Source: Myxococcales bacterium (GTDB lineage: Bacteria; Myxococcota_A; Polyangia; Fen-1088). From it: a stretch of 34,813 nt of DNA. Where the stretch lies: contig PNBO01000171.1 in the NCBI GenBank assembly GCA_003136095.1, forward strand, positions 1 through 34,813, written 5' to 3'. The notes under the pieces were generated by a model that was not told where the DNA came from, searched no databases, and saw only the letters and a program-made list of their open reading frames with translations. Positions within the stretch are counted from its first letter, which is position 1. Each line of letters opens with the position of its first letter. The position numbers were made by a program, and so were the translations under genes. This document shows positions 4,918 to 21,605 of the stretch, one piece after another.

Positions 4918-5928
4918 GTGGCTGCCAAAGACATTCCATCCGCGATCATCGATGAGCCTTCGCGTCCCGTCCCGATTGCGGTGGACTGGGCGACGCCGAG
5001 GGTTCGCCTGCCGCTCGCCCCTGATTTCGAATTCGACATGTCGATTTTCGAGATCATTCTCGACCGGGTGGAGGACGGGGTGTACTTCGTGGATCGCAGC
5101 AAGCGCATCCGGTTATGGAATGGCGGGGCCGAGGCGATCACCGGGTTTTCGCGCGACGACGTCCTGGGCGAGCCGTGCGGCAATCACTGGCTCTGCCACG
5201 TGGACGCGGCGGGCCACACGCTGTGCGCCGAGAGTTGCCCACTCGACCGCGCCGTGAACAGCGAGACGCCGTTCGAGCAGGACGCCTACCTGCAACACAA
5301 GCTGGGCCATCGTATCCCTGTCCGCATCAAGACCTGGCCGCTGCGCGACAAGCAAGGCCAGCTCATCGGCGCCGTCGAGATCTTCCGCAGCACGATCCTC
5401 GGCCGCCGGCAGGAACAGCTCATCGAGGAGCTCTCCCATCTCGCCCTCATCGACGATCTGACCCACTTGCCCAACCGCCGCCACTTCGACCTTCAGCTCG
5501 ATCGGCGCCTGGCCGAGTTGAATCGTTTCGGCTGGCCTTTCGGGGTGCTGATGATCGACCTCGACCATTTCAAGCAGGTCAACGACGGCCACGGACATCA
5601 CGTCGGCGACCAGGTCCTGCACCTGGTAGCCCGCACCCTGCTCGCCAATTGCCGCTCGCTCGATACCGTCGCCCGCTGGGGTGGCGAGGAATTCGGGGCC
5701 ATCATCGCCAACGTGCGCGAGGACGAGCTACGCAGGGTGGCCGAGAAATTCCGCACCATGGTCGAGGCCAGCGGATTGCGCGAGTCGTCGAGCGCGCCCG
5801 TTCGGGTCACCATTTCGATCGGTTGCGCGATGGCGCAGCCGAATGAAACCGCGGCCGAGCTCATGAAGCGCGCCGACGCCATGCTCTACGCCGCCAAGCG
5901 ATCGGGCAGAAACCGGGTCTGCATCTAA
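4918..5928 (+). CDS. PAS-GGDEF diguanylate cyclase
   Basis: A probable c-di-GMP synthase. An N-terminal PAS domain (about 41-160) is followed by a GGDEF domain (about 170-336). The active site is canonical GGEEF (255-259). An inhibitory-site RxxD (RSLD, 246-249) sits five residues before it, so product inhibition is expected. The PAS core has a cysteine cluster: Cys87, Cys93, Cys103 and Cys107 in the C..(WL)CHVD...LC...CPL pattern, which suggests redox, metal or ligand sensing. No membrane segment is visible. The start is taken as GTG 4918, six bases after thpR. ATG 5038 (residue 41), just before the PAS domain, is an alternative. Confidence 0.92.
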   Translation: MAAKDIPSAIIDEPSRPVPIAVDWATPRVRLPLAPDFEFDMSIFEIILDRVEDGVYFVDRSKRIRLWNGGAEAITGFSRDDVLGEPCGNHWLCHVDAAGHTLCAESCPLDRAVNSETPFEQDAYLQHKLGHRIPVRIKTWPLRDKQGQLIGAVEIFRSTILGRRQEQLIEELSHLALIDDLTHLPNRRHFDLQLDRRLAELNRFGWPFGVLMIDLDHFKQVNDGHGHHVGDQVLHLVARTLLANCRSLDTVARWGGEEFGAIIANVREDELRRVAEKFRTMVEASGLRESSSAPVRVTISIGCAMAQPNETAAELMKRADAMLYAAKRSGRNRVCI

Positions 5929-5974
5929 CCCCAAAACCCGAATCTGTGCCTCGGGGCCGGCTTGTGATAGGGGT

Positions 5975-7201
5975 ATGGCCTCGATGAAACGAGGGCAGTC
6001 CCCGGACGAAGACGCACCGCCCACCCGCGTCGCGCGCTGGCCGTGGTGGGTCGCGTTGCTTTGCTGTCTCGCGGGCTTGTCGCTGTCGATTCTGCTCGAG
6101 CAGATCCACTTCAAGATCCACACCGATCCCACATTCCACAGCTTCTGCGCCATCGACCGCAGGGTGAACTGCGACATCGTCGCGCACAGTCCCTACTCCG
6201 TGTTCTTCGGCGTACCCGTGGCCGCGTGGGGCATCTTCGCGTACGCCGTGGCGGCCCTGGTTTCGCTGTGGGGCCTGCGCAGCCGCCGGCCGCAACTCGC
6301 CATCGGCTGCGGCGTGGGGCTGGGGCTCATCTACGCGGCTGGGAGCGCGATCCTGGGGGCCATCTCGGCCTTTCTGGTCACGGCGGTATGCATCCTGTGC
6401 CTGGCCACCTACGGCATCAATCTGGTCTTTCTCGTCTGCATGCTGCTGGCCGCGCGCCCCGTCGGCTTCTGGGCGGCCTTGGCCGAGCTCCCGCGGGTGC
6501 TGCGCGCCCGGCCGCTGCGCGTGCTCGCCGTGCTCGCGCTGCTCGGCGGGGCCAAGATCGCATTGATCGCTGCCCATCCGAACTACTGGAAGACGGCACC
6601 CAAGGCCAGCCGGACCCAGCCTACCGCGCCCGTTCTGCCCAACGGCATCGAGCCTGGCGGCGGACATTTCCTCGGCGCCGAGCAGCCGGTGGTCACTCTC
6701 ACCGAATTCAGCGACTACGAGTGCCCCTACTGCCGCCAGGCCCACGCCCAGGTTCGCGAGCTCCTCGAACGCTTTCCCACGCGCCTGCGGCTGGTCCACC
6801 GCCACTATCCGCTCGACCAGAGCTGCAATGCATCGATCAAGACGCGCATGCACGAAAACGCGTGCTTCGCCGCCATGGTCGCCGAGTGCGCCGGCCGGCA
6901 GAATCGCTTCTGGCAGGCCAACGACTACCTCTTCGCCGAAGCCCGCAGCCTGCACGCGCGCCCCAATGCCGAGATCGCGCGCGACATCGGGCTGGACGCC
7001 AAGGCCCTGGAAACGTGCCTGCGCGAGGCAGGCCCGCGCACCGTTGCCCTGGACGTGGACGAAGGCAATCGCCTGCAGATCCAGGGCACGCCGACCTTCG
7101 TCATCGAGGGCAAGACCTACATGGGCAACCTGCCACCCTGGGTGCTCGCGCGTCTACAGAGCGCAGCCGCCGGGGTCGACAGTGGTGTGCGGGAACCCTA
7201 A
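5975..7201 (+). CDS. VKOR-DsbA fusion, disulfide bond formation protein
   Basis: A self-contained oxidative folding protein. The N-terminal half is a vitamin K epoxide reductase domain with several membrane helices (about 22-195). It holds the loop pair Cys58/Cys66 and the quinone-side CxxC pair Cys139/Cys142. A periplasmic thioredoxin-fold DsbA-like domain (about 230-400) carries the CPYC active site (Cys250/Cys253) and a cis-proline region near QGTPTF. The DsbA part has extra cysteines in a helical insert, common in this fusion family. It would oxidise exported proteins and pass electrons to quinones. The Cys-rich exported lipoproteins in this window are plausible clients. ATG 5975 follows AGGGGT closely; ATG 5984 is an alternative. 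It converges on ybeY. Confidence 0.93.
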   Translation: MASMKRGQSPDEDAPPTRVARWPWWVALLCCLAGLSLSILLEQIHFKIHTDPTFHSFCAIDRRVNCDIVAHSPYSVFFGVPVAAWGIFAYAVAALVSLWGLRSRRPQLAIGCGVGLGLIYAAGSAILGAISAFLVTAVCILCLATYGINLVFLVCMLLAARPVGFWAALAELPRVLRARPLRVLAVLALLGGAKIALIAAHPNYWKTAPKASRTQPTAPVLPNGIEPGGGHFLGAEQPVVTLTEFSDYECPYCRQAHAQVRELLERFPTRLRLVHRHYPLDQSCNASIKTRMHENACFAAMVAECAGRQNRFWQANDYLFAEARSLHARPNAEIARDIGLDAKALETCLREAGPRTVALDVDEGNRLQIQGTPTFVIEGKTYMGNLPPWVLARLQSAAAGVDSGVREP

Positions 7202-7265: not shown

Positions 7266-7390
7266 AATGAACCACAGAGGACACGGAGGACACAGAGCCC
7301 GGACCGGAATGGGAAGGGTTCGGATCCGGATCCGGGAGCCCTTCCCATCCGTCTCTGTGTCCTCTGTGTCCTCCGTGGTGAACCATTCGA
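7266..7390. repeat. Large imperfect palindrome between convergent genes
   Basis: Left arm ACCACAGAGGACACGGAGG (from 7271) continues to GACACAGAG. The right arm CTCTGTGTCCTCTGTGTCC, then CTCCGTGGTGAA (7353-7383), is its near reverse complement. Inside lies a second inverted pair, GGGAAGGG (7311-7318) with CCCTTCCC (7339-7346), around a CGGATCCGGATCCG centre. The whole could fold as one long hairpin. It lies between the 3' ends of the VKOR-DsbA gene and ybeY, where a bidirectional terminator would be expected. There is no T-run, so intrinsic termination is not proven. A single arm recurs at the window start, which makes this a dispersed element. Confidence 0.85.
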
Positions 7391-11568: not shown

Positions 11569-11620
11569 GGTGGAGAGGAGCAGGAAGGAGTGCAGGTTGA
11601 TGGTGTTGACTCAAGATCTG

Positions 11621-11666
11621 TTATCGGCCATTTTGCGGATGCGATTCGGTGAAGGCCAAAAGACGC
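11621..11666 (-). repeat. Decayed IS end, outward facing (copy 1)
   Basis: Read on the minus strand this segment gives CCTTCACCGAATCGCATCCG, then CAAAATGGCCGATAA. It matches the other copies (CCTTGGCCGAAACGCATCCG, then CAGTAAAATGTCCGATA). It is inverted relative to the copies at 15.2, 18.2 and 21.5 kb, and its outer tip points left, away from the cellulase genes. It lies in the 233-base gap between mazG and the GH12 gene. The rest of that gap is somewhat AT-richer and shows no gene. Confidence 0.75.
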
Positions 11667-11801
11667 ATGCTCCGACTATGCTCAAAATGCAACCTTCCCA
11701 AATTGCATGACCTCTTGGTTTACTAGGCGTACTTCGGCAGGGGAGCTCGGAAGTCTCATCCGCCAAAGGCGACGAAAGTAGAAATCAGAAAGGATCGGAG
11801 A

Positions 11802-13331
11802 ATGGATTCGAGGTTTGGGTTGCATGCCGCTTCTAGGATGTCCTTCGCCCTTCCGGGCGTCATTCTGCTTGCCGGGGTCGCCGCATGTGGCGGCATGGGA
11901 GCACGTCCCGTGGAGGTGGATGCCGCCCTTCCGCCGGTTTGGCCGGCCGAGCAGACGGTCAGCAGCTGCGACGACTTTGCGACCATAGCCGTGGGTTCCT
12001 ACGTCCTGCAATCGAACTATTGGAACAAGGACACCTGTCCCGGAACCCAGTGCATCGAGATGAACAGCGTCACCGGCGCCTTCTCCGTGACCCAAGGTCC
12101 TCCAGCCTGCGGGAACAACGTCGCCTCCTTCCCCAACGTGCTCTACGGCTGCTCCTACGGGAACTGCACCCCTGCCAGCGTTCTGCCCAAGCCGGTCGGG
12201 CAGCTCTCCTCGTTGACAAGCAGTTGGGATTTCTCCGCAGGGGGTATCGCGAGCGACCGCTGGAACGTGTCCTACGACCTCTGGTTTTGCCCCGACAACA
12301 ACTGCGCGGCCAGCGGATTCCCCAACGGGCTCGAGTTGATGATCTGGCTGGACTACAACAACGCCTATGGCTGGAAGACCCACCTCGGCAGCGTGAGCCT
12401 GGCCGGATACACCTGGGACGTTTGGGCGGCCGACATGCTCGTCGGCGGGGCCTCCGCCAGTTGGAACTACATGAACTACATCCTCAAACCCCCGATGGTG
12501 ACGTCCGTGACCAAACTGGACCTGAATGCGTTCATCCGAGACGCAATCCAGCGAGGCTATGCCCAGAATTCCTGGTACCTCTACGCAATCCAGGCCGGCA
12601 TGGAGGTGCGATCCGGCGGCATGCCCTTCACCAGCAACAGCTTCTCCGTCACCATCAACGGCGAGACCGCGTCGACGGCCCCGGTGGCGAATCAGGGCCC
12701 GTCCTGCGACGGTGGCCTCCCCACCGCGGACGGGCAACTCAGCATCAGTGACAGTTACGTCACCGCGGGCCCGCTGCACGGATACGGCGCGGCCTGGACC
12801 TCGGCGGTAGGCGGCTCGACTGCCATCGTCTGCGGCACGCCCGTCTGCACCGGAGGGCAAGAGGGGGCAGCAGGGACTTGCTCACCGGCGTTGGGGCCAT
12901 CGGCTCTGTGCACGGCGGGCACCGTTTCGGCGGATCCAACCTATCATGCAGTGGCGGGCATTGGTTTCGAGCTCAACCAAGACTTGCTCGTCGCTGGCGG
13001 CGCCAGCGATGTCGATGGTGGCGACATTGCCCCTATCGGCACCATCACCATCCCCAACAGCCTCACGGTTGCCATCACAAAATCGGACTCCCTGGGCGGG
13101 GACTCCTCTCTGCGACTGCAACTCAAGGACGTGGACGGCAATCTCTTCTGTTACGCGGGCCCGCTGAACGAGGTCATACCCATCGACAAGCTCAACACCC
13201 AGTGTTGGAACAACAAGGGCGACTTCGCCACGTCCAGCACACTCTTCACCCGACTCGACGTCATCGTGCCGAGCAGCGCGACCACGGACCTACCGTTCTC
13301 CTACTGCCTGGCCAACGTCACGGTGCAGTAG
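11802..13331 (+). CDS. Lipoprotein GH12 endoglucanase with C-terminal extra domain
   Basis: 509 residues. A lipoprotein signal ends in VAAC (Cys29). Residues about 55-288 match glycoside hydrolase family 12: YVLQSNYWN (67-75), GTQCIEM, FPNVLYG (110-116), YDLWF, ELMIWLDY with probable nucleophile Glu178, and YAIQAGMEV with probable acid/base Glu268. It should cut beta-1,4-glucan (cellulose, mixed-linkage glucan or xyloglucan) at the cell surface with retention. Residues about 295-509 are a separate cysteine-containing, beta-rich-looking domain that I do not recognise; a carbohydrate-binding role is a guess. GGAG precedes ATG 11802. The GH9 gene follows after 33 bases, so the two are probably co-transcribed. 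Confidence 0.9.
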   Translation: MDSRFGLHAASRMSFALPGVILLAGVAACGGMGARPVEVDAALPPVWPAEQTVSSCDDFATIAVGSYVLQSNYWNKDTCPGTQCIEMNSVTGAFSVTQGPPACGNNVASFPNVLYGCSYGNCTPASVLPKPVGQLSSLTSSWDFSAGGIASDRWNVSYDLWFCPDNNCAASGFPNGLELMIWLDYNNAYGWKTHLGSVSLAGYTWDVWAADMLVGGASASWNYMNYILKPPMVTSVTKLDLNAFIRDAIQRGYAQNSWYLYAIQAGMEVRSGGMPFTSNSFSVTINGETASTAPVANQGPSCDGGLPTADGQLSISDSYVTAGPLHGYGAAWTSAVGGSTAIVCGTPVCTGGQEGAAGTCSPALGPSALCTAGTVSADPTYHAVAGIGFELNQDLLVAGGASDVDGGDIAPIGTITIPNSLTVAITKSDSLGGDSSLRLQLKDVDGNLFCYAGPLNEVIPIDKLNTQCWNNKGDFATSSTLFTRLDVIVPSSATTDLPFSYCLANVTVQ

Positions 13332-13364
13332 CCCGGCGGGCGGTCTACGACGATTCATTCTCGG

Positions 13365-15041
13365 ATGCCGTCTTTCACCTGGTTGCTCGCCCGTCCCCTG
13401 CTGGCCGTCGGCCTGTCCCTCGGCTGCGCCGCTTGCGTGGATCAGTCGTGTGCATCCGGCACCGAGAAGTGGAACGGTGATCTGTGCCAGCCCCCGTCCA
13501 CCGTACACGTGAACACGGTGGGCTTCCTGCCCGATCATGCCAAGGCGGCGGTGGTGTTGCAGGCGGCGACGACCTTCTCCCTCATGCGCGCCGACGACTC
13601 GGAGGCCATGTCCGGCAACGCGACCGGGCCCGTGCACGATGGCGACACCGGCCTGGATCTGTGGACCATCGACTTCTCGTCGTTCAGCGAGCCGGGCGAG
13701 TACTACCTGGACGTTCCCGGCGTCGGGCGTTCGGTGAGCTTTCGCATCGACGCCAATGTCTACACCGACGTGACGAAGACGCTGATGCTGGGCATGTACG
13801 GCCAGCGCTGCGGCGTCGCCGTCGAGCTCGAGCACGACGGCAAGACCTTCGCCCACGACCAATGCCACACGCACGACGCCATCCCCTGGGAAGACCAGGC
13901 CAGCGGTGCGGTGAAGGACGTGATCGGCGGCTGGCATGACGCCGGCGACTACGGCAAGTACAGCAACAACGCCGCGTTCTCGCTGGGCATGCTCTTCCGC
14001 GCCTGGGAGCTCTCCCCGGACAAGCTCGCCGGGCTGGCGCTGGCCATCCCCGAGCACGGCGGCCCCATCCCGGATTTCCTGGCCGAAGCCAAGGTCGAGC
14101 TCGCTCAGCTGCTGAACATGCAGCGCGACGACGGCAGCGTCTACCAGCAGGTTTCGGAAGTCAACTTCGAAGGCTTCATCTCGCCGAGCGCCGACACCGG
14201 CGCCCGCTACCTCTTCGGCTTCGGCACGGTGCAGGCCGCCGATGTGGTGGCCGTGGCCGCCGCCGGCGCGAGACTGTTTCTACCCTACGACACCGGGTAC
14301 GCCTCGCTCTGCCTGGCCGCCGCCCAGAAGTCCTGGGCCTACCTGCAAGCCAACGGTTTCGCCGCCGCGGACCTGAGCGGCACGAACCACCCCGGCTACT
14401 GGCGGCGCGACGACGCGCCCGAGCGGCTCTGGGCCGCGGCGGAGCTGTGGGAGACCACCGGGGCCGCGGACGCGCTGGCGGCCGTCGAGGCCAAGATCGG
14501 TACCACCTCGGTCTCGCCGAGTTGGGACTGGCCGAACGTCGGCAACCTGGGCATCTTCACGTACGTGTTGTCCAAGCGCGATGGCCGCGACGCGACGGTG
14601 CTCGCGTCCGTCATCGACAACATCAACAGCTCGGCAAACGCAATCCTTTCCCAAATTTCGACGAGCGGCTTCGCGCGCGGCATTCCGAGCTACAACTGGG
14701 GCTCCAACGGCTCGATCGCCCGGACGACGCTGAACCTGATGGTCGCCAACGTACTGCAGCCCGACGCCAAGCTCGTCGACGGCGCCGTCGCGCAGCTCGA
14801 TTACCTGCTCGGGCGCAACGTCTTCGGCCGCTCGTTCGTGACTGGCCTCGGACACTTCTCGCCCATCCACCCGCACCACCGTCCGTCGTCCATCACCGGG
14901 GCGTGGCCCGGCCTGCTGGTGGGAGGCCCCAACGGCAGCGCGACAGCGTGGAAGGACGACCAGGAGGTCTACCAGGAGAACGAGATCGCCATCAACTGGA
15001 ACACGGCGATGATTTTCGCCGCCGCCAGCCTGACGCCGTGA
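13365..15041 (+). CDS. Lipoprotein GH9 cellulase with N-terminal Ig-like domain
   Basis: 558 residues. A lipoprotein-type leader ends at Cys21 or Cys24. An Ig-like CelD_N domain (about 46-130) is followed by the GH9 alpha-barrel domain. GGWHDAGDYGKY (188-199) supplies the catalytic-base aspartates Asp192 and Asp195. HPHHRPS is the conserved His/Arg substrate motif. NEIAINWNTAM near the end supplies the acid Glu540. The enzyme is an inverting endo- or exo-glucanase, expected at the outer surface. Pairing GH9 with GH12 on one transcript suggests a small plant-glucan degradation unit. The module sits between outward-facing copies of the IS-end repeat. Confidence 0.93.
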   Translation: MPSFTWLLARPLLAVGLSLGCAACVDQSCASGTEKWNGDLCQPPSTVHVNTVGFLPDHAKAAVVLQAATTFSLMRADDSEAMSGNATGPVHDGDTGLDLWTIDFSSFSEPGEYYLDVPGVGRSVSFRIDANVYTDVTKTLMLGMYGQRCGVAVELEHDGKTFAHDQCHTHDAIPWEDQASGAVKDVIGGWHDAGDYGKYSNNAAFSLGMLFRAWELSPDKLAGLALAIPEHGGPIPDFLAEAKVELAQLLNMQRDDGSVYQQVSEVNFEGFISPSADTGARYLFGFGTVQAADVVAVAAAGARLFLPYDTGYASLCLAAAQKSWAYLQANGFAAADLSGTNHPGYWRRDDAPERLWAAAELWETTGAADALAAVEAKIGTTSVSPSWDWPNVGNLGIFTYVLSKRDGRDATVLASVIDNINSSANAILSQISTSGFARGIPSYNWGSNGSIARTTLNLMVANVLQPDAKLVDGAVAQLDYLLGRNVFGRSFVTGLGHFSPIHPHHRPSSITGAWPGLLVGGPNGSATAWKDDQEVYQENEIAINWNTAMIFAAASLTP

Positions 15042-15211
15042 TCCGCGGTACTTCACCACGTCTTCGTGCCAGCCCGTTCCGGTCGCCCGACGTTCCGTAT
15101 TCGTTCAGGGAACCGCGTCTGGTGAGCGACGGCGGCTTCAGGCAAGCTTCGTGCATGCCGAGGAGAATCCGCCTGGGCCGCAAGCTCCGGGCGCACCTGG
15201 TTGAGGAGCTC

Positions 15212-15345
15212 AAGCGCCATCTTTCCTTCACCGAAACGCATCTGCAGCAAATGTCGACACGAAACATTACGTCAACCACAGAGGCCTACACATCAATCTG
15301 CCCCTATACTCAAGGGTTACCTAACATCCTTTTATCGGACATTTG
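15212..15345 (+). repeat. Abutting right and left IS ends (copy 2)
   Basis: 15212-15258 is a right-end copy with CCTTCACCGAAACGCATCTG, ending in a damaged AAATGTCGACA tip. The outer flank ACCACAGAGGCCTACACATC continues to AATCTGCCCCTATACTC (15275-15310), shared with the copies at 18.2 and 21.5 kb. A left end at 15316-15345 matches 17771-17800 in 29 of 30 positions (TAACATCCTTTTATCGGACA core). A right end meeting a left end is the expected scar of adjacent or tandem insertions. Confidence 0.8.
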
Positions 15346-15669
15346 CAAAGTGGCGCTTCAAAGGACTATCCACCGGTGTATCGAAGAATTGAAGCAGTAG
15401 TAGTAGTGGTGCCGCTCTCGAGCCCGAAGGTTAGGTACTGCGGCGAGAGTTGCCGGGCATGTGGGCATGGTTGACATGGGGGGCGTTACCGGAGAACCTG
15501 GGAGGCAATGCGGCGGCAGCAGGAGTAGCCACATGCTCTATCCCCCGCCGATCTTCTCCTCACCGACGCATCCTGGCGCGGTAGGAAGAGGACAGCGGCC
15601 GCTTGGGCTGGGGCGCGTAAGATTCGAGGTGAGCGACTAGGGCAAAGACCGTTCGAGCAAGGGAGATTC
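15346..15669. other. Non-coding stretch upstream of the deacetylase gene
   Basis: I see no gene here. There is a short GTA microrepeat (CAGTAGTAGTAGTGG near 15397) and an AAGGGAG Shine-Dalgarno sequence just before ATG 15670. A promoter for the deacetylase/acyltransferase pair is likely to be in this stretch, but no confident -35/-10 pair was found. Confidence 0.5.
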
Positions 15670-16443
15670 ATGAGCCAGAGCAGCGCCGCATGGGTGACCC
15701 CCCCACAGTTCAAGCTAGCCAACCTGTCGCCGGCGATCTATCGCGCCTTCCTCAGCAAGGCCAAGCAGGCCGGGTACGCCTTCGTCCGCTTCGGAGAGAG
15801 CGACCGCGTTCCCTCGCAGCCCTACATCCTGCTCCGGCACGACATTGATCTGTCGCCTCGCTATGCAGCGGAAATGGCCAAGCTGGAACGAGACGCCGGC
15901 ATTGCGTCCACCTACTTCGTGCTCATCGACGGCCAGTTCTACAATATTCTTCGCCCAGACAACATCCGACATCTGCGCACGATCCACGACCTGGGCTTCG
16001 AGATTGGCCTGCATTTCTCGGTAACTCAATCGACCAAGGCTTCCGTCGAGGACGAAATCGAGTATCAGGTGCGCACGCTAGAGTCGATCATCGAGGCTCC
16101 GGTTCGGTCGATCTCGCAGCACGATCCCGTCAACACCGGCGCGTATCGTCCTGTTTCGAGCAGGTACGTCGACGCCTACGCGGCGTTTGATCGGCTCGGA
16201 TTGCTGTACGTGAGCGACAGCGGGAAGATGTGGCGGCAGTACACCTTCGACACGGCACTGGATACGGGACGCAATCTCTGTCTGCTGGCTCATCCCATTT
16301 CGTGGATCTGCGAGAAGTACGATTTGCTCTCGGTGATCCACGACATCAAGGAAGAGGAGGTCACGGCGCTCACCAATCGCTTCTCGACCTTTGCCCACAA
16401 CCACATCACGTACTACCAGAAGCGAATGGCCGAGGAGGAATGA
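15670..16443 (+). CDS. NodB-like polysaccharide deacetylase family protein
   Basis: 257 residues, soluble, no signal peptide. RHDIDLSPRYAAEM (56-69) is the metal-site start of the branch in which the usual TFDDG becomes HDID (His57, Asp58, Asp60). STYFVL (80-85) and FEIGLHFS (110-117) with His115 follow as expected. Members of this branch occur in surface-polysaccharide and glycan-modification loci. Removal of an N-acetyl or similar group from a sugar is the likely chemistry, probably in the cytoplasm. An AAGGGAG site precedes the ATG. The acyltransferase GTG starts one base after its stop, so the two genes are tightly coupled. The exact substrate is unknown. Confidence 0.85.
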   Translation: MSQSSAAWVTPPQFKLANLSPAIYRAFLSKAKQAGYAFVRFGESDRVPSQPYILLRHDIDLSPRYAAEMAKLERDAGIASTYFVLIDGQFYNILRPDNIRHLRTIHDLGFEIGLHFSVTQSTKASVEDEIEYQVRTLESIIEAPVRSISQHDPVNTGAYRPVSSRYVDAYAAFDRLGLLYVSDSGKMWRQYTFDTALDTGRNLCLLAHPISWICEKYDLLSVIHDIKEEEVTALTNRFSTFAHNHITYYQKRMAEEE

Positions 16444-16444
16444 C

Positions 16445-17443
16445 GTGCTTCGCGTCCAGCTAGAACAGCAAGAGCTCGCAGCAGCCCTCGGGATCGCGGC
16501 GGCCGCAAAGGCCTCAGGAGAACCAATTCGGTCCATCGGCACACTCGGCGAGCCGCAGGACAATGCGCTCTATTTCATCAGCCGTGGCCTCGACGACGCC
16601 CTCTCGGCCAGGTTCTCGACCCTGACGGGGTGTCTCTTCCTCGCCCGCCCCGGGCAGGGCCCATCCAGGCTGGGCGACGGTTCCGTCACCGTCGAGGTTG
16701 CGAATCCGCGACTGACGATGGCGCGTATCCTCCGCTTTGTGCGCGATCACGGTCGCCTGACCAAGCGCCTGAGCGAAAGCAGCATCCCGGCCTCAGCCCG
16801 AATCTCCCAGTGGGTTCATGTTGACGGCAATGTGGCACTGGGCCCTGAGGTGGTCATCGAGCCCTTCTGTTTCATTGGGGACGACGTCACAATCGGCGAC
16901 CGTACGGTCGTCCACTCAGGAGCTAGAATCCTGGCCCGCACCGAGATCGGCCCCGATTGCATCATCGGTCCCAATGCCGTCGTCGGATACGAAGGGTTCG
17001 GTCTCGAGCGCGACGAAAACGGATACTATCAGCGGCTCCCCCATTTGGGTGGAGTCCGAATCGGCGCCCACGTCGAGCTCGGTTCTCTCAGCACCGTTGA
17101 TGCGGGCACGCTGTCGCCGACCACAGTCGGCGATGGCGCAAAGCTCGATGCTCACGTGCATGTGGCCCACAATGCGCGAATTGAAGCCGACTGTATCCTC
17201 ACGGCAGGTGCCATCATCGGCGGAAGTGTGACCCTGGGGTCGGCCTGCTGGGTGGGGCTCAACGCCACGGTCCGAGACAGGGTGACCGTTGGCGGGCAAT
17301 GCTTCGTGAACATGGGAGCGATCGTGACTCACGACCTTCCCAACGGCGCTATCGTCTCGCACCAGGAGGAGAAGGTGGCTCGTCCGGCTCACCCCGTTCC
17401 CCCCGAGGTCATCCTGGCCGCCCGTTTCCGCTCCGAAGACTGA
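16445..17443 (+). CDS. LpxD-like hexapeptide N-acyltransferase
   Basis: 332 residues. An N-terminal LpxD-like substrate domain (about 1-105) is followed by a left-handed beta-helix of hexapeptide repeats (about 115-300). The region from GYEGFG (181-186) through VDAGTL and HVHVAHN aligns with the LpxD active site, and His242 in VAHN is at the catalytic-base position. It should transfer an acyl group from acyl-ACP or acyl-CoA to the amine of a nucleotide sugar. It is probably not the housekeeping LpxD: it lies in an IS-bounded island beside a deacetylase rather than near lpxA or fabZ. GTG 16445 is chosen because GAGGAGGAA lies just upstream. A longer frame from 16391 overlaps the deacetylase. 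Confidence 0.88.
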   Translation: MLRVQLEQQELAAALGIAAAAKASGEPIRSIGTLGEPQDNALYFISRGLDDALSARFSTLTGCLFLARPGQGPSRLGDGSVTVEVANPRLTMARILRFVRDHGRLTKRLSESSIPASARISQWVHVDGNVALGPEVVIEPFCFIGDDVTIGDRTVVHSGARILARTEIGPDCIIGPNAVVGYEGFGLERDENGYYQRLPHLGGVRIGAHVELGSLSTVDAGTLSPTTVGDGAKLDAHVHVAHNARIEADCILTAGAIIGGSVTLGSACWVGLNATVRDRVTVGGQCFVNMGAIVTHDLPNGAIVSHQEEKVARPAHPVPPEVILAARFRSED

Positions 17444-17720
17444 GTCACCGAGGGGACCCCGGCGGCGCTGTCATGTTGCTTCAGCACGACGCCGGCGCCT
17501 GGCCCGGCGGCCTTCTGGGCGAAAGGTCGCCCATCATCGAGGAAGTCGTGGGACTACGTCTACCTAGCTTCCCCCGTCGCGCGATCGAGCGAGTCCGTGA
17601 TGCCGAGACCTCCGGCCCGGTCGCGCAGATAGTGCCGTCGAAGCTGAGGTTGGCTAGCCCTCGACCGCTTCGCACACCGGCCGTGGCGGGAGCCGCTCGT
17701 AGTGGTCGTTGCGCTCGACG
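17444..17720. other. Gap with no recognisable gene
   Basis: The gap lies between the acyltransferase stop and the outer flank of the IS remnant. Open frames exist on both strands, but none has a start with a ribosome site or a recognisable motif. It is probably decayed DNA. Confidence 0.4.
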
Positions 17721-17887
17721 ACTGGGTATAGGGATAGTTCAGCTTAGTTCGGGCGCGTAAGTGAACGTAGGTTACATAACATCCTTTTATCGGACATTTG
17801 CCTGTAGCAGCCACATGAAAATGTCCGGTTCCAGCCAAGTAGAAATGTCCGCTTTCGGCGATGGGTTGTCGTGCGATAGCCGGACGT

Positions 17888-18140
17888 ATGGCGAAGGAAC
17901 TGGTGACCATGAGTCGAAGGGAAATCGACCGTCTAGCTGTGATCAGGCGCGTAGTTGAGAGACGGCTTTCACAGAAAAAAGCCGGAGAGCTAATAGGACT
18001 GAGCACGAGGCAGGTTCGGCGCTTGTGCCGGGCTTACGGCCGATGCGGGCCGATAGGCTTGGCGTCTGGAAAGCGCGGAATGCCGAGTAATCGCGGGTTA
18101 CCCGAGGAGCTTCGTAAGCGTGCAATGGCGATCGTGCGCG
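17888..18140 (+). pseudogene. Truncated IS1202/ISNCY-family transposase N-terminus
   Basis: The frame gives MAKELVTMSRREIDRL, then a helix-turn-helix region with KKAGELIGLSTRQVRRL and a GLASGKRGMPSNRGLPEEL segment, ending at IVRER. This is the typical N-terminal DNA-binding part of IS1202-group (ISNCY) transposases. The catalytic DDE portion that should follow is missing. After about residue 84 the frame runs into the right-end repeat (PWPKRIRSKMS) and stops at 18307. The start could also be ATG 17909. It cannot catalyse transposition, but could still bind element ends. Confidence 0.8.
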
Positions 18141-18141
18141 A

Positions 18142-18271
18142 GCGGATAGTCGTTTCGAGCGCCGTTTTGCCTTGGCCGAAACGCATCCGCAGTAAAATGT
18201 CCGATAAGAGACATTGCCTCAACCACAGAGACCTACACGTCAATCTGCCCCGAACTATCCCCTACACCCAG
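18142..18271 (+). repeat. Right-end repeat of the IS remnant
   Basis: This starts at GCGGATAGTCGTTTCGAGC and continues through CCTTGGCCGAAACGCATCCG, AGTAAAATGTCCGATAAG and ACCTACACGTCAATCTGCCC. Its first ~63 bases match the 21.5 kb copy with three mismatches. It is the best-preserved right end and provides the outward tip of the transposase remnant. Confidence 0.8.
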
Positions 18272-18314
18272 GGCGCTTGCCCGCCCCACGCAACGCCACT
18301 ACAATGAAAAGGCC

Positions 18315-19223
18315 ATGACCTGTCCTCGCGATGTCGTCGCCGTTCTCCTCTGTTGTCTACCCCTGGCGGCCGCGGCGCCCGCCGCGGCGGCGCCCGATCC
18401 CGCGCAAGGCAGGACGGCATTCGACGAGGGGCAGAAGCTGTTCGTGGCCGGCGACTACCGTCAGGCGCTGGCCTGGTTCGAGAGGGGCTTGCTGGACTCG
18501 GAGGACCCGGCCTTCTTGCTCAACATCGCCCAGTGCCATCGCTCCCTGGGCGAGCCCAAGGAAGCCTTGATGATGTTCAGGCTCTATCTCAAGTCGTCGC
18601 CGGAGGGAGTGAACCGGCAGGCCCGGGCCGTCGCGACGAAAGCCATCCGCGAGCTCGAGAGCGAGGCAGCGACGCCCGCGGTGGCCAAAGCCGTACCGGA
18701 TGCACGGCCTGCGCTGCCACCCGTCGCAGCGCCCGCGCCGGCAGAGCCCGCGCCGGCCATGCCGTCCACACCCTCGTCGGGGCGCTGGTTCCAGCAAGTC
18801 CCGGCCGCGCTGCCGGTCCTCGATCCTCTGCCGGAGCTCGAGGTGAAGGCCGCGCCGGCGGCGACGCCGAATGCGCCGGACAATACTGCGTCCACCGTAC
18901 GCCACCTGCGTCTAGCCGCCATCGCGTGTGACGGGGTCGGGCTGATCGCCGTCGGTACTGGCTTCTACTACTGGACGCGCGCCAGCTCGCTTTCCGATTC
19001 GGCCAACAAGGCGACCAACTACAACCAGGCCGCCTACGACGAGGGCAAGCGGGCCGAGAGCATGCAGTGGCTCTTCTACGGTGTCGGCGCGGTGGCGGTC
19101 ATGACCGGTGCGGGCCTCTTCGTCTACAGTAGGTGGTTGCCGACAGCGGAGCAGGCGAACGTGAGCCTGGCGCCCATGGTGGGGCCGGGCGCCGCTGGTC
19201 TCGAGGCCCGCGGAACATTTTGA
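18315..19223 (+). CDS. Secreted TPR protein with two C-terminal membrane helices
   Basis: 302 residues. A signal peptide (about 1-26) precedes TPR-like helices (about 30-115: FDEGQKLFVAGDYRQAL, PAFLLNIAQCHRSLGEPKEA). An Ala/Pro-rich linker (about 120-195) is followed by two hydrophobic helices (about 197-220 and 252-275), with a tail reading LAPMVGPGAAGLEARGTF. This architecture is frequent in Polyangia, often near Ser/Thr kinases, and its function is unknown. It probably sits in the inner membrane with the TPRs in the periplasm. AAAAGG precedes ATG 18315. The stop shares one base with the RCC1 gene start (TGATG), so they form one unit. Confidence 0.8.
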   Translation: MTCPRDVVAVLLCCLPLAAAAPAAAAPDPAQGRTAFDEGQKLFVAGDYRQALAWFERGLLDSEDPAFLLNIAQCHRSLGEPKEALMMFRLYLKSSPEGVNRQARAVATKAIRELESEAATPAVAKAVPDARPALPPVAAPAPAEPAPAMPSTPSSGRWFQQVPAALPVLDPLPELEVKAAPAATPNAPDNTASTVRHLRLAAIACDGVGLIAVGTGFYYWTRASSLSDSANKATNYNQAAYDEGKRAESMQWLFYGVGAVAVMTGAGLFVYSRWLPTAEQANVSLAPMVGPGAAGLEARGTF

Positions 19224-21046
19224 TGCGAAAAGCGTCGGCCCTTCGCGCGTACCTGCTCGTCGCCGCGGCCACGTCCTTCGGCGCGTGCGGCTTCGCTCCG
19301 CAGCCGAAGAGCGGAACCGTGGCCTGCAAACCGACTGGGGCCGCCTGTTGCCCCGAAGGCTACCTCTGCGTCGGGCGGGGAGCGAGCACAGCCGGCGGCC
19401 CCTCGGCCGGAACCTGCTGGAGCAAGCGGGATCTGCCACCCGCAGCGCTCGCTGCTGCGCATGACCACACCCCGACAGTTCCTAACGATCCCGCATGTCT
19501 GGTGACGGACTGGTTGCCGCTTGTCCCGGGAACGGGTGGGGCCCCTGGGCAGCTCGACGGTGGTGCGGCGGACGCTGCCTGGCTGCCCCCGACCGGCACG
19601 GGCGGGACCGTGACCATCGGTAAGCCCGACTCCGGCGCTGACGCTCCGCTGGGCCAAGACACCGCTTCCGATGTGCGGCTGTCGGGTACCGGCGGGTCCG
19701 GGGGACCGGCGGATGCCCCGGTCGTCGACGGTAGCGACACCGCTGCCGACGTCGCGTCCGAGGGGTGGCTACCAGTGCCCCTCGTTGACGCTGCCGACGC
19801 GCCGACGACGCCAACCATCGATGGTGCCTCCACCGATACGCCGCTGCCACCGGTCGATGATGCTGCTTCGATATCGCTCGACGGCGGTGCCGTCGATGGA
19901 GCCAGCCAGGAGGCTTCTGCCTCGCTGGATGCCGCGGACGATCTGGTCACGGGCGGCGAAGCTGGCGGCGTGGACACAAGCCCGGGCATCGAGGGAATCG
20001 TCACCAGCATCGGTGCCGGCACCTTCTTCACCTGCGCCGTGGTTCACGGCGGAGTGAGATGCTGGGGCAACAACGACCACGGCCAACTCGGCGACGGCAC
20101 GACCACGTTCCGAAGTGCGCCCCGCCCGGTGCCAGGTCTCGAATCGGGAGCTACCGTCGTCTCCGCCGGTTTCACCCATTCCTGCGCGGTGGTCAACGGC
20201 GGGCTGAAGTGCTGGGGCGAAAATCGGTACGGGGGCCTTGGCGACGACACGACAACAGACAGACAAAGCCCCGTTCAAGTAGTCGGCCTGGAAGCCGGCG
20301 TCACTACCGTTTGTGCCGGCTACCATCACACCTGCGCCGTGGCCAATGCCAAGGCGTGGTGCTGGGGCTACAACGACCACGGGCAGCTTGGAGACGGTAC
20401 CGCCATCGATCGACATGTTCCCGTCCTTGTTACTGGTCTGCCCTCGCAGGCTACGGTCGTTGCGTGCGGCACTGTGCACTCGTGCGCCGTCGCCGGCGGT
20501 GCGGCTTTCTGCTGGGGCGAGAACATGGGCCAGCTCGGCAACGGCGGCGGGATGGATTCCGAGGTGCCCGTTCAGGTGGGAGCCGTGACCTCGGGCGCTT
20601 CGGACATCTCGGCAGGAACCTACCTCGGCTGCGTCGTGGTCAATGGTGCGGCGTACTGTTGGGGCAACAATGGGAGCGGCGAGCTTGGCAACGGCGGCGA
20701 TCCGTACAAAACCGAGTACTCTCCGGTAGCCGTCTTTGGGCTGAGCGCCGGCGTTACGCGGATCTCCAGCAACGACCGCTCCCAAAGCTGCGCCATAGTC
20801 AATGGTGGCCTGCAGTGCTGGGGACTGGGCTCGTACGGATTGGGGGACGGGACCATCTACAACGCCACTACCCCCGTTTCCATCTTCGACGCCGGCACTG
20901 GCATTGTCGCCTTCAGCGTCGGCCACACCCACATTTGCGCCGCCACGGCCGACGCCCTGATGTGCTGGGGCCAGAACGCCGGGGGAATGCTCGGTGACGG
21001 CACCACGGTCGACAAACTCACCCCCGTTACAATCCCGCTGCCTTGA
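19223..21046 (+). CDS. RCC1-repeat propeller lipoprotein
   Basis: 607 residues. A lipoprotein leader ends in FGAC. A Cys-rich patch with CCPEGYLC follows, then a long Asp/Ala/Gly/Thr linker (about 100-255). The remainder holds seven RCC1/BNR-like repeats of the form HxCAVxxGxxxCWGxNxxGQLGDG, enough for one seven-bladed propeller. Each blade carries the paired cysteines CAV...CWG, suggesting a disulfide per blade. The protein is exported and lipid-anchored; its binding partner is unknown. Bacterial RCC1 proteins are not nucleotide exchange factors as a rule, so no such role is claimed. ATG 19223 is set by the TGATG overlap with the TPR gene. It is a likely client of a DsbA-type oxidase. Confidence 0.88.
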   Translation: MRKASALRAYLLVAAATSFGACGFAPQPKSGTVACKPTGAACCPEGYLCVGRGASTAGGPSAGTCWSKRDLPPAALAAAHDHTPTVPNDPACLVTDWLPLVPGTGGAPGQLDGGAADAAWLPPTGTGGTVTIGKPDSGADAPLGQDTASDVRLSGTGGSGGPADAPVVDGSDTAADVASEGWLPVPLVDAADAPTTPTIDGASTDTPLPPVDDAASISLDGGAVDGASQEASASLDAADDLVTGGEAGGVDTSPGIEGIVTSIGAGTFFTCAVVHGGVRCWGNNDHGQLGDGTTTFRSAPRPVPGLESGATVVSAGFTHSCAVVNGGLKCWGENRYGGLGDDTTTDRQSPVQVVGLEAGVTTVCAGYHHTCAVANAKAWCWGYNDHGQLGDGTAIDRHVPVLVTGLPSQATVVACGTVHSCAVAGGAAFCWGENMGQLGNGGGMDSEVPVQVGAVTSGASDISAGTYLGCVVVNGAAYCWGNNGSGELGNGGDPYKTEYSPVAVFGLSAGVTRISSNDRSQSCAIVNGGLQCWGLGSYGLGDGTIYNATTPVSIFDAGTGIVAFSVGHTHICAATADALMCWGQNAGGMLGDGTTVDKLTPVTIPLP

Positions 21047-21104
21047 GGTGGAAGCAGGCAGGTCGCTTGCTCCTCCCGCGCACCGCTGCCACCAAGCGAG
21101 GGCC

Positions 21105-21494
21105 ATGGCTCTCATTCGTGGTCTGGTCGCGGTTCTTGTGTGTTGTCTGACCCTAGCGGCGCCGGCGCCATCCCTGGCGGCGGCCGATCTTGCGCAAGGT
21201 AAGGGTCTCGCGCGAAGAAATCCGCGAAGAAATCTCTGGCACCTCCCCTCGGACAACCGCCGGCAAACCGCGAAGAAACCTCTGGCACCTCCCCCCTCGG
21301 TGAGCAACACCTCGAATGCGCAGGATTCCGCGTTGGAGGACGCTTCCACCATCCTTGATGGAGGGGCGTGTACCTGGCCCGCGAGTTTCACCCCCACTGG
21401 AGGGGATTCCGCTGTCGGGTGCTGGGCCCATGCGCTCTCTGGGACGACCGATGCCGGGTCATCGAGTTTCAGCTGCTTGGCATCCGGCGGATAG
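21105..21494 (+). pseudogene. Broken lipoprotein/TPR-leader gene remnant
   Basis: The first ~30 residues (GLVAVLVCCLTLAAPAPSLA, then AADLAQGKG) resemble the leader of the TPR gene at 18315 (VVAVLLCCLPLAAAAPAAAA, then PDPAQGR). The frame then departs into low-complexity sequence containing a 54-base-spaced direct repeat. It ends in a different piece (ILDGGACTWPASFTPTGGDS) that looks like part of another exported protein. No TPR helices remain. It ends where the right-end IS repeat begins. I read it as a recombination product, probably not functional. Confidence 0.6.
21219..21303 (+). repeat. Short direct repeat, two units
   Basis: CCGCGAAGAAATCTCTGGCA, then CCTCCCCTCGG (about 21221), recurs about 54 bases later as CCGCGAAGAAACCTCTGGCA, then CCTCCCCCCTCGG (about 21275). 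It lies within the broken leader gene and marks local duplication. Confidence 0.7.
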
Positions 21495-21605
21495 TCGTTG
21501 CAAGCGCCGTTTTTCCTTGGCCGAAACGCATCCGCAGTAAAATGTCCGATACGAAGCCTTACGTCCACTACGGAGACCTACACGTCAATCTGCCCCTACA
21601 CCCAG
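21487..21605 (+). repeat. Solo right IS end (copy 4)
   Basis: This begins GCGGATAGTCGTTGCAAGCG, has CCTTGGCCGAAACGCATCCG and AGTAAAATGTCCGATACG, then the outer flank GAGACCTACACGTCAATCTG to CCCCTACACCCAG. No transposase or matching left end is next to it. It closes the accessory island on the right. Confidence 0.82.

Follow-up and report, generated by a model that had tools for sequence, protein, structure and literature searches.

Six copies of a ~130-bp repeat bound and divide an insert of ~10.4 kb between the convergent genes mazG and pgpA. The best explanation, held here with good confidence, is that these units derive from an ISCR-like rolling-circle transposon of this bacterial family, as its non-autonomous solo ori ends, and that their spread, together with capture of DNA, would build islands. 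The identity of the unit as the ori end of an ISCR-like element (IS91 superfamily, HUH) is firm, with little room for doubt. Its rolling-circle spread is likely, and it is plausible, at roughly even odds, that the units assembled this particular island. The window, meaning the whole stretch of 34,813 nucleotides that was analyzed, is contig C394 of the draft genome G000 (6.03 Mb, 456 contigs, 84.75% complete, 6.73% contaminated), a MAG whose draft state limits the context available around the units; other genomes are labeled G001 and so on, and C numbers denote contigs.

The first-pass annotation had reported motifs shared by four loci of the window, and the core of this pattern stood. CCTTNNCCGAAACGCATCCG is found at 11636-11655 on the minus strand and at 15225-15244, 18170-18189 and 21515-21534 on the plus strand with 0-1 mismatches (chance expectation in the window, 0.06), and CCTACACGTCAATCTGCCCC at 15285, 18232 and 21577, also with 0-1 mismatches (chance expectation in the window, 0.00). 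The downstream AAAATGTCCGATA is exact at 18170 and 21515 only. Alignment of the genome-wide copies defines the repeat as a unit of ~130 bp, with a left border of G(C/T)GGATAGTC or GAGCATAGTC and a right border of CTATACCCAG. Both borders are sharp, per-column information being at background level just outside them. What had been taken for an outer flank, CCTACACGTC..CCCC, proved to be internal to the unit, which continues to TATACCCAG. The unit lacks the hallmarks of a MITE: its termini match over only 7 bp (GGATAGT/ACTATCC) and its flanks hold no conserved duplicated target. An RNA element was considered and rejected, as hairpin pairing is retained in 86.5% of cells with no convincing covariation and an Rfam search of the region gave no match to an RNA element, only one sub-threshold chance match. 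A tRNA search of the window found none, so a tRNA insertion site was likewise rejected.

The six copies in the window differ in completeness. U1 (11569-11683, minus strand), identified by alignment and a match to the R1 model at 11577-11682 (E=4.7e-14), is a diverged solo ori-end unit that begins directly past the mazG stop (11568) with its ter tip toward mazG. U2 (15199-15314, plus; R1 match 15210-15306, E=3.7e-18) is a solo unit with a degenerate ori end. It abuts U3 (15315-15373, minus), a short inverted unit with a weak R1 match (15318-15373, E=0.003), and the two form a near palindrome. U4 (17722-17802, minus; R1 match 17722-17811, model positions 42-129, E=5.9e-8) is an inverted unit without an ori end and is cut by an ISNCY fragment. 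U5 (18142-18272, plus; R1 match E=1e-33, borders from alignment) is the full-length solo unit used as type copy, and U6 (21487-21604, plus; R1 match E=6.3e-27), a solo unit with 89% identity to U5 over 110 nt, forms the right border of the island. Units are thus present in both orientations, the minus set comprising U1, U3 and U4 and the plus set U2, U5 and U6. The two matching "left ends" described previously do agree, at 97% identity over 32 bp (15315-15346 against 17770-17801), and both are parts of the minus-strand copies U3 and U4.

Homology places the unit at the end of full or partial IS91/ISCR-type copies, where it matches the final ~130 bp beyond the transposase gene. Four such copies in G000 carry the unit, or a diverged version of it, ~85-100 bp past the transposase stop; on C260 and C277 it lies ~85 bp past the 3′ end of an IS91-family transposase gene, and C98 holds two further IS91/ISCR-type copies with diverged versions. 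In G001, G004, G007, G012 and G017, the unit or a diverged version likewise lies ~85-100 bp past the stop of related transposases, with the same layout of CTTGTTTTC.. and then ..GTTGACRTAA..ATCGGACA..GGCGCTTG....CTA... The parent protein matches Y2_Tnp (PF04986, 1.1e-27), with the motifs HFH at 176 and RYHG at 363 that fit an HUH nuclease with a catalytic tyrosine, and bears an N-terminal zinc-binding domain, Zn_Tnp_IS91 (PF14319, 1.8e-07). Its best NCBIfam match is ISCR_clade_Ia (3.7e-77), in which it is a relative and no member, scoring 260 bits against the curated cut-off of 925 (NF052416). The ends of the parent element, AAAAGGGCGCTTGTGCTTCCTACGC and AAAAGGGCGCTTGAAATTCCTA, resemble those of ISCR2 (AAAAGGGCGTTTATTCTTCCTATACG) and ISCR1 (GGTGGTTTATACTTCCTATACCC) as read from plasmid records. 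The ori-end motif GGCGCTTG..TTCCTA is present in C98a, C249, G004 and G012, as in ISCR2, and the variant carried by the unit is GGCGCTTGAAACGACTATCC. From this arrangement and the resemblance of the parent's ends to those of ISCR2 and ISCR1, the unit is identified as the ori-end region of a rolling-circle transposon of ISCR-like type.

Two near-identical copies in G004 set the 3′ terminus at ..GGCGCTTGTAGTTCCTGTACGCA; target-site duplication is absent from these and from both C249 copies. With respect to the IS91/IS801 target (GAAC/CAAG), no conserved tetranucleotide is seen outside the ori end in 20 copies, and this rule may not hold for ISCR-like members. The inner border of the unit lies just past a CTTGTTTTCC box and reads CCTGGGTATAGGG in the main subfamily; copies of the C249 subfamily have CCCGGCTATCGGGGG there. 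Both sequences resemble small G+C-rich hairpins and may serve as internal termination sites. With an ori end, a ter end lost or new and, in most copies, no transposase, the units have the makeup of one-ended derivatives of the IS801 miniature type. By membership they are an ISCR-like derivative that departs from the IS91 target rule and falls below the ISCR clade Ia cut-off.

The first-pass annotation had proposed a single repeated, decayed, non-autonomous family of IS ends, and this was borne out: G000 contains 69 copies (sequence model of the unit, E<=0.01), often between accessory genes. Both checks that it had set, further copies in the genome and adjacency of mazG and pgpA in a relative, came out in its favor. 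The same model finds copies in 13 of 18 same-family genomes and none in G004, G006, G008, G010 and G012. A blastn search of 41 genomes from other families with the unit consensus gave no match. Of the GTDB genomes scanned with a degenerate pattern, only Myxococcales or "Proteobacteria" MAGs of the fen and Chersky series matched, and no unit was found in the viral contigs and plasmid records searched. Among the G000 units checked, 48 of 54 lack any trace of a transposase in the 700 bp on their ter side, which marks them as solo ends. The family is a genome-wide element, beyond a local curiosity, and more than ordinary IS debris.

That the ~10.4 kb in the window is an insert follows from G007, a relative without the island, where mazG and pgpA are only 8 bp apart. 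The two convergent genes are separated by 0.8 kb in G011 and 2.5 kb in G008. In G002 (same genus, 94% complete), a pgpA homologue was not found and mazG is followed by an unrelated convergent gene. Three pairs of plus-strand cargo genes occupy the island. The first comprises GH12 (11802-13331) and GH9 with CelD_N (13365-15041), the second, at 15670-17443, a presumed "deacetylase" (15694-16443) and an LpxD-like hexapeptide acyltransferase, and the third, at 18315-21046, a TPR protein and an RCC1-repeat protein. Pfam/NCBIfam profiles confirm the previous calls for the GH12 and GH9 cellulases, the acyltransferase, the TPR and RCC1 proteins, MazG and PgpA; the "deacetylase" has no match to any Pfam or NCBIfam model. 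A homologue of the latter occurs in one of 17 family relatives (G016), 52-53% identical and split in two. A 72% repeat (18269-18409 and 21059-21199) was also observed, in which the upstream region and 5′ part of the TPR gene, from the tip of U5, recur past the RCC1 gene without a unit.

The GH12-GH9 pair is syntenic on C540 of G001, with 81% nucleotide identity and homology that stops at the GH9 stop. A minus unit lies 93 bp past this stop in G001, and the minus unit U3 likewise follows in the window. Because the G001 contig begins inside GH12, its further context being too short to prove movement, the pair and its nearby unit could reflect vertical inheritance. None of the cargo in the window turned up joined to a unit at two clearly distinct loci. 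That the units assembled the island is made plausible by the GH12-GH9 pair near a unit in G001 and by a capture elsewhere, described below.

In the proposed mechanism, transposase from the few fuller copies would nick at the ori end (GACTATCC|, a hairpin end; the ori border reads GACTATCC(G/A)C|), and a single strand would then be copied through the unit. Copying that stops at the hairpin-like CC(C/T)GGGTATAGGG inside the 3′ region of the parent would yield a ~130-bp solo unit, and copying that stops further out in neighboring DNA would carry cargo. Islands like that between mazG and pgpA would then arise from many rounds of insertion and capture, together with recombination between repeats.

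One clear candidate for such a capture is found on C249. Here, a 1080-bp block made of the N-terminal part of an XPB helicase gene, a C-terminal transposase relic and a unit occurs twice, 3.7 kb apart, with 95% identity. The two loci (L176) span 459-2827 and 5542-6886 and hold the XPB gene with the adjacent DUF790 gene and a second, truncated XPB with transposase relic and unit. The donor block lies upstream of the intact XPB gene, with the DUF790 gene adjoining. One end of the copy falls precisely on the ori terminus of the unit (..GAAATTCCTA|) and the other within XPB, the pattern that would be expected of one-ended rolling-circle transposition.

At mfd, a unit occupies the identical place in G000 and G001, with 94% identity over 1.5 kb on the ori side and a wholly different ter side. 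The order in G001 (C606) is PPIase gene, mfd fragment, transposase relic, one gene, unit and mfd. In G000, C260 carries the PPIase gene, an mfd fragment, a full transposase gene, a unit and GH2, and C312 carries GH141, GH43, a unit, a radical-SAM-like ORF, a second unit and mfd; these contigs are presumably the two sides of one mfd island. The contents of this unit-bounded mfd-surA island (L055, L049, L109), which adjoins a PpiC-type PPIase gene, differ between the two sister species. At the 5′ border of the transposon lies an mfd fragment of 190 bp.

The different ter-side DNA next to the mfd unit would also be expected from recombination between repeats, and the units could be inert relics of one MITE-like spread of an ISCR-like miniature, carrying no cargo, with clustering and mosaicism produced later by recombination and permissive intergenic hot spots. 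This explanation is possible, if rather doubtful. Many unit copies are degenerate, in keeping with it, and most natural IS801 fragments in P. syringae have been ascribed to reorganization and not to one-ended transposition (PMC3189936). However, a block that ends at the exact ori terminus and inside a host gene, as on C249, is not predicted by simple recombination between units, nor does recombination explain the marked co-orientation of neighboring units.

Outside the window, neighboring units within 6.5 kb of one another point in the same direction in 33 cases and in opposite directions in 5 (17:1 in G000 and 16:4 in the other genomes). They are also clustered in G000, with 23 neighbor pairs observed against ~5 expected if placement were uniform. 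Segmental duplication does not explain these co-oriented clusters, as no other duplication was found in the flanks of neighboring units. When ter-side flanks were compared between loci, only the transposase was common, apart from the C249 block. Strand-biased insertion into single-stranded DNA at replication forks would give co-orientation without serial capture and would leave the intervening genes as bystanders. HUH transposons of the IS200/IS605 family do insert with lagging-strand bias, and co-oriented neighbors can belong to different subfamilies, as on C142 (74% identical). Against this reading, which is considered unlikely, unit orientation is uncorrelated with contig GC skew (11/31), GC3 skew (16/31) or gene strand, although the skew is weak and the contigs are short.

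A bolder extension of the solo-ori-end reading is trans-activated gene shuffling, in which a few ISCR-like transposases would act on dozens of solo ori ends, copy ter-side genes as single strands and deposit co-oriented cassettes between core genes. Such a system would be integron-like, yet rolling-circle and without a recombination platform. It is put forward tentatively, as a proposal more apt to fail than to hold.

The first-pass annotation had read the loci as ends of a single decayed two-ended element. As a two-ended IS of ISNCY type with terminal inverted repeats GGGTATAGGGATAGTTC and GAACTATCCCCTACACCC, of which 17721-18271 would be the best copy and the other loci mere ends, this is very improbable. 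The stretch 17725-18272 does have outward inverted repeats and an ISNCY transposase N-terminus, but these repeats are formed by the tips of two units that face opposite ways, and 17721-18271 consists of one minus and one plus unit flanking an unrelated remnant. This remnant (17803-18141, plus strand) has a probable TGT.. end and a transposase N-terminal HTH (NF033594, E=8e-16). Its coding part (17861-18141) covers only positions 2-70 of the 368 in the profile and lacks the DDE catalytic domain. ISNCY was rejected as the parent because the remnant is the sole ISNCY match in G000, whereas the unit is repeated without it, with fixed borders, and follows IS91/ISCR transposases elsewhere. The loci are instead solo ori ends in both orientations. 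Integron attC-type sites of a chromosomal cassette array, suggested by co-oriented repeats mostly 1-5 kb apart between genes, are scarcely credible, since the termini, read directly, are G(C/T)GGATAGTC and TATACCCAG without GTTRRRY/RYYYAAC core sites, the unit corresponds to a transposon's 3′ region, and both orientations occur within one array.

Several known systems resemble the solo ori ends. Like ISCR1 and ISCR2, the parent has an HUH Y-transposase with a zinc-binding domain and adjacent DNA is found with its end; the 3′-region terminus motif GCG(C/T)TT..TTCCTA is common to the parent and ISCR2, with a similar motif in ISCR1. In contrast, its transposase is only 37-39% identical to the plasmid ISCR proteins, below the clade Ia cut-off, and the ori ends are mostly transposase-free, at ~70 per genome, in co-oriented chromosomal arrays among non-resistance genes. 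One-ended transfer of adjacent DNA is presumed for ISCR elements as well, and as of 2018 experimental transposition had been shown for none (PMC6218425). A remnant ISCR28 with an extra oriIS, the two sandwiching a captured gene, was described in 2025 in work on sul4 (PMC12772301). Right-end fragments of 229-679 nt are known for IS801 of P. syringae (IS91 family), where they are left by one-ended transposition, which carries adjacent DNA (PMC3189936). In its workings the present case resembles these examples. The units share with these miniatures their derivation from the right end and the potential to carry neighboring DNA. They differ in that a single size class of ~130 bp, its inner border unchanged, recurs in at least two subfamilies, across genera and at high copy number, and the IS801 tetranucleotide rule is not seen. 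REP/BIME sequences with TnpA-REP are also short, hairpin-bearing intergenic repeats tied to an HUH nuclease, but are ~20-40 nt long and linked to an IS200-like TnpA, whereas the unit is the end of an IS91/ISCR element. Non-autonomous Helitrons are rolling-circle elements reduced to their ends, with a 3′ hairpin, gene-fragment capture and tandem co-oriented insertions. The units are likewise rolling-circle ends; Helitrons, however, are eukaryotic, encode a RepHel protein with a helicase and have other terminal sequences.

What is new here is scale and form: a recurrent solo ori unit of ~130 bp, in ~70 copies and co-oriented arrays. ISCR elements are blamed for moving resistance genes. The start and stop points of such transfer can be compared in this natural lineage, which has ~70 solo ori ends, the duplicated fragment of a host gene on C249 and the paired islands of sister species. 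The lineage also suggests a route, independent of integrons and phages, by which carbohydrate-active genes could form mosaics between core genes.

Glycoside hydrolase genes were noted near units on several contigs, namely GH5 and GH16 (C277), GH43 and GH141 (C312), GH2 (C260 and C294) and GH59 (C414), as well as GH9 and GH12 in the window, an impression formed without a background control. Another short repeat, of the ACCACAGAGGACACGGAGGACACAGAG type, occurs in the window in direct and inverted copies at 7271-7297, 7353-7382 and 3-32.
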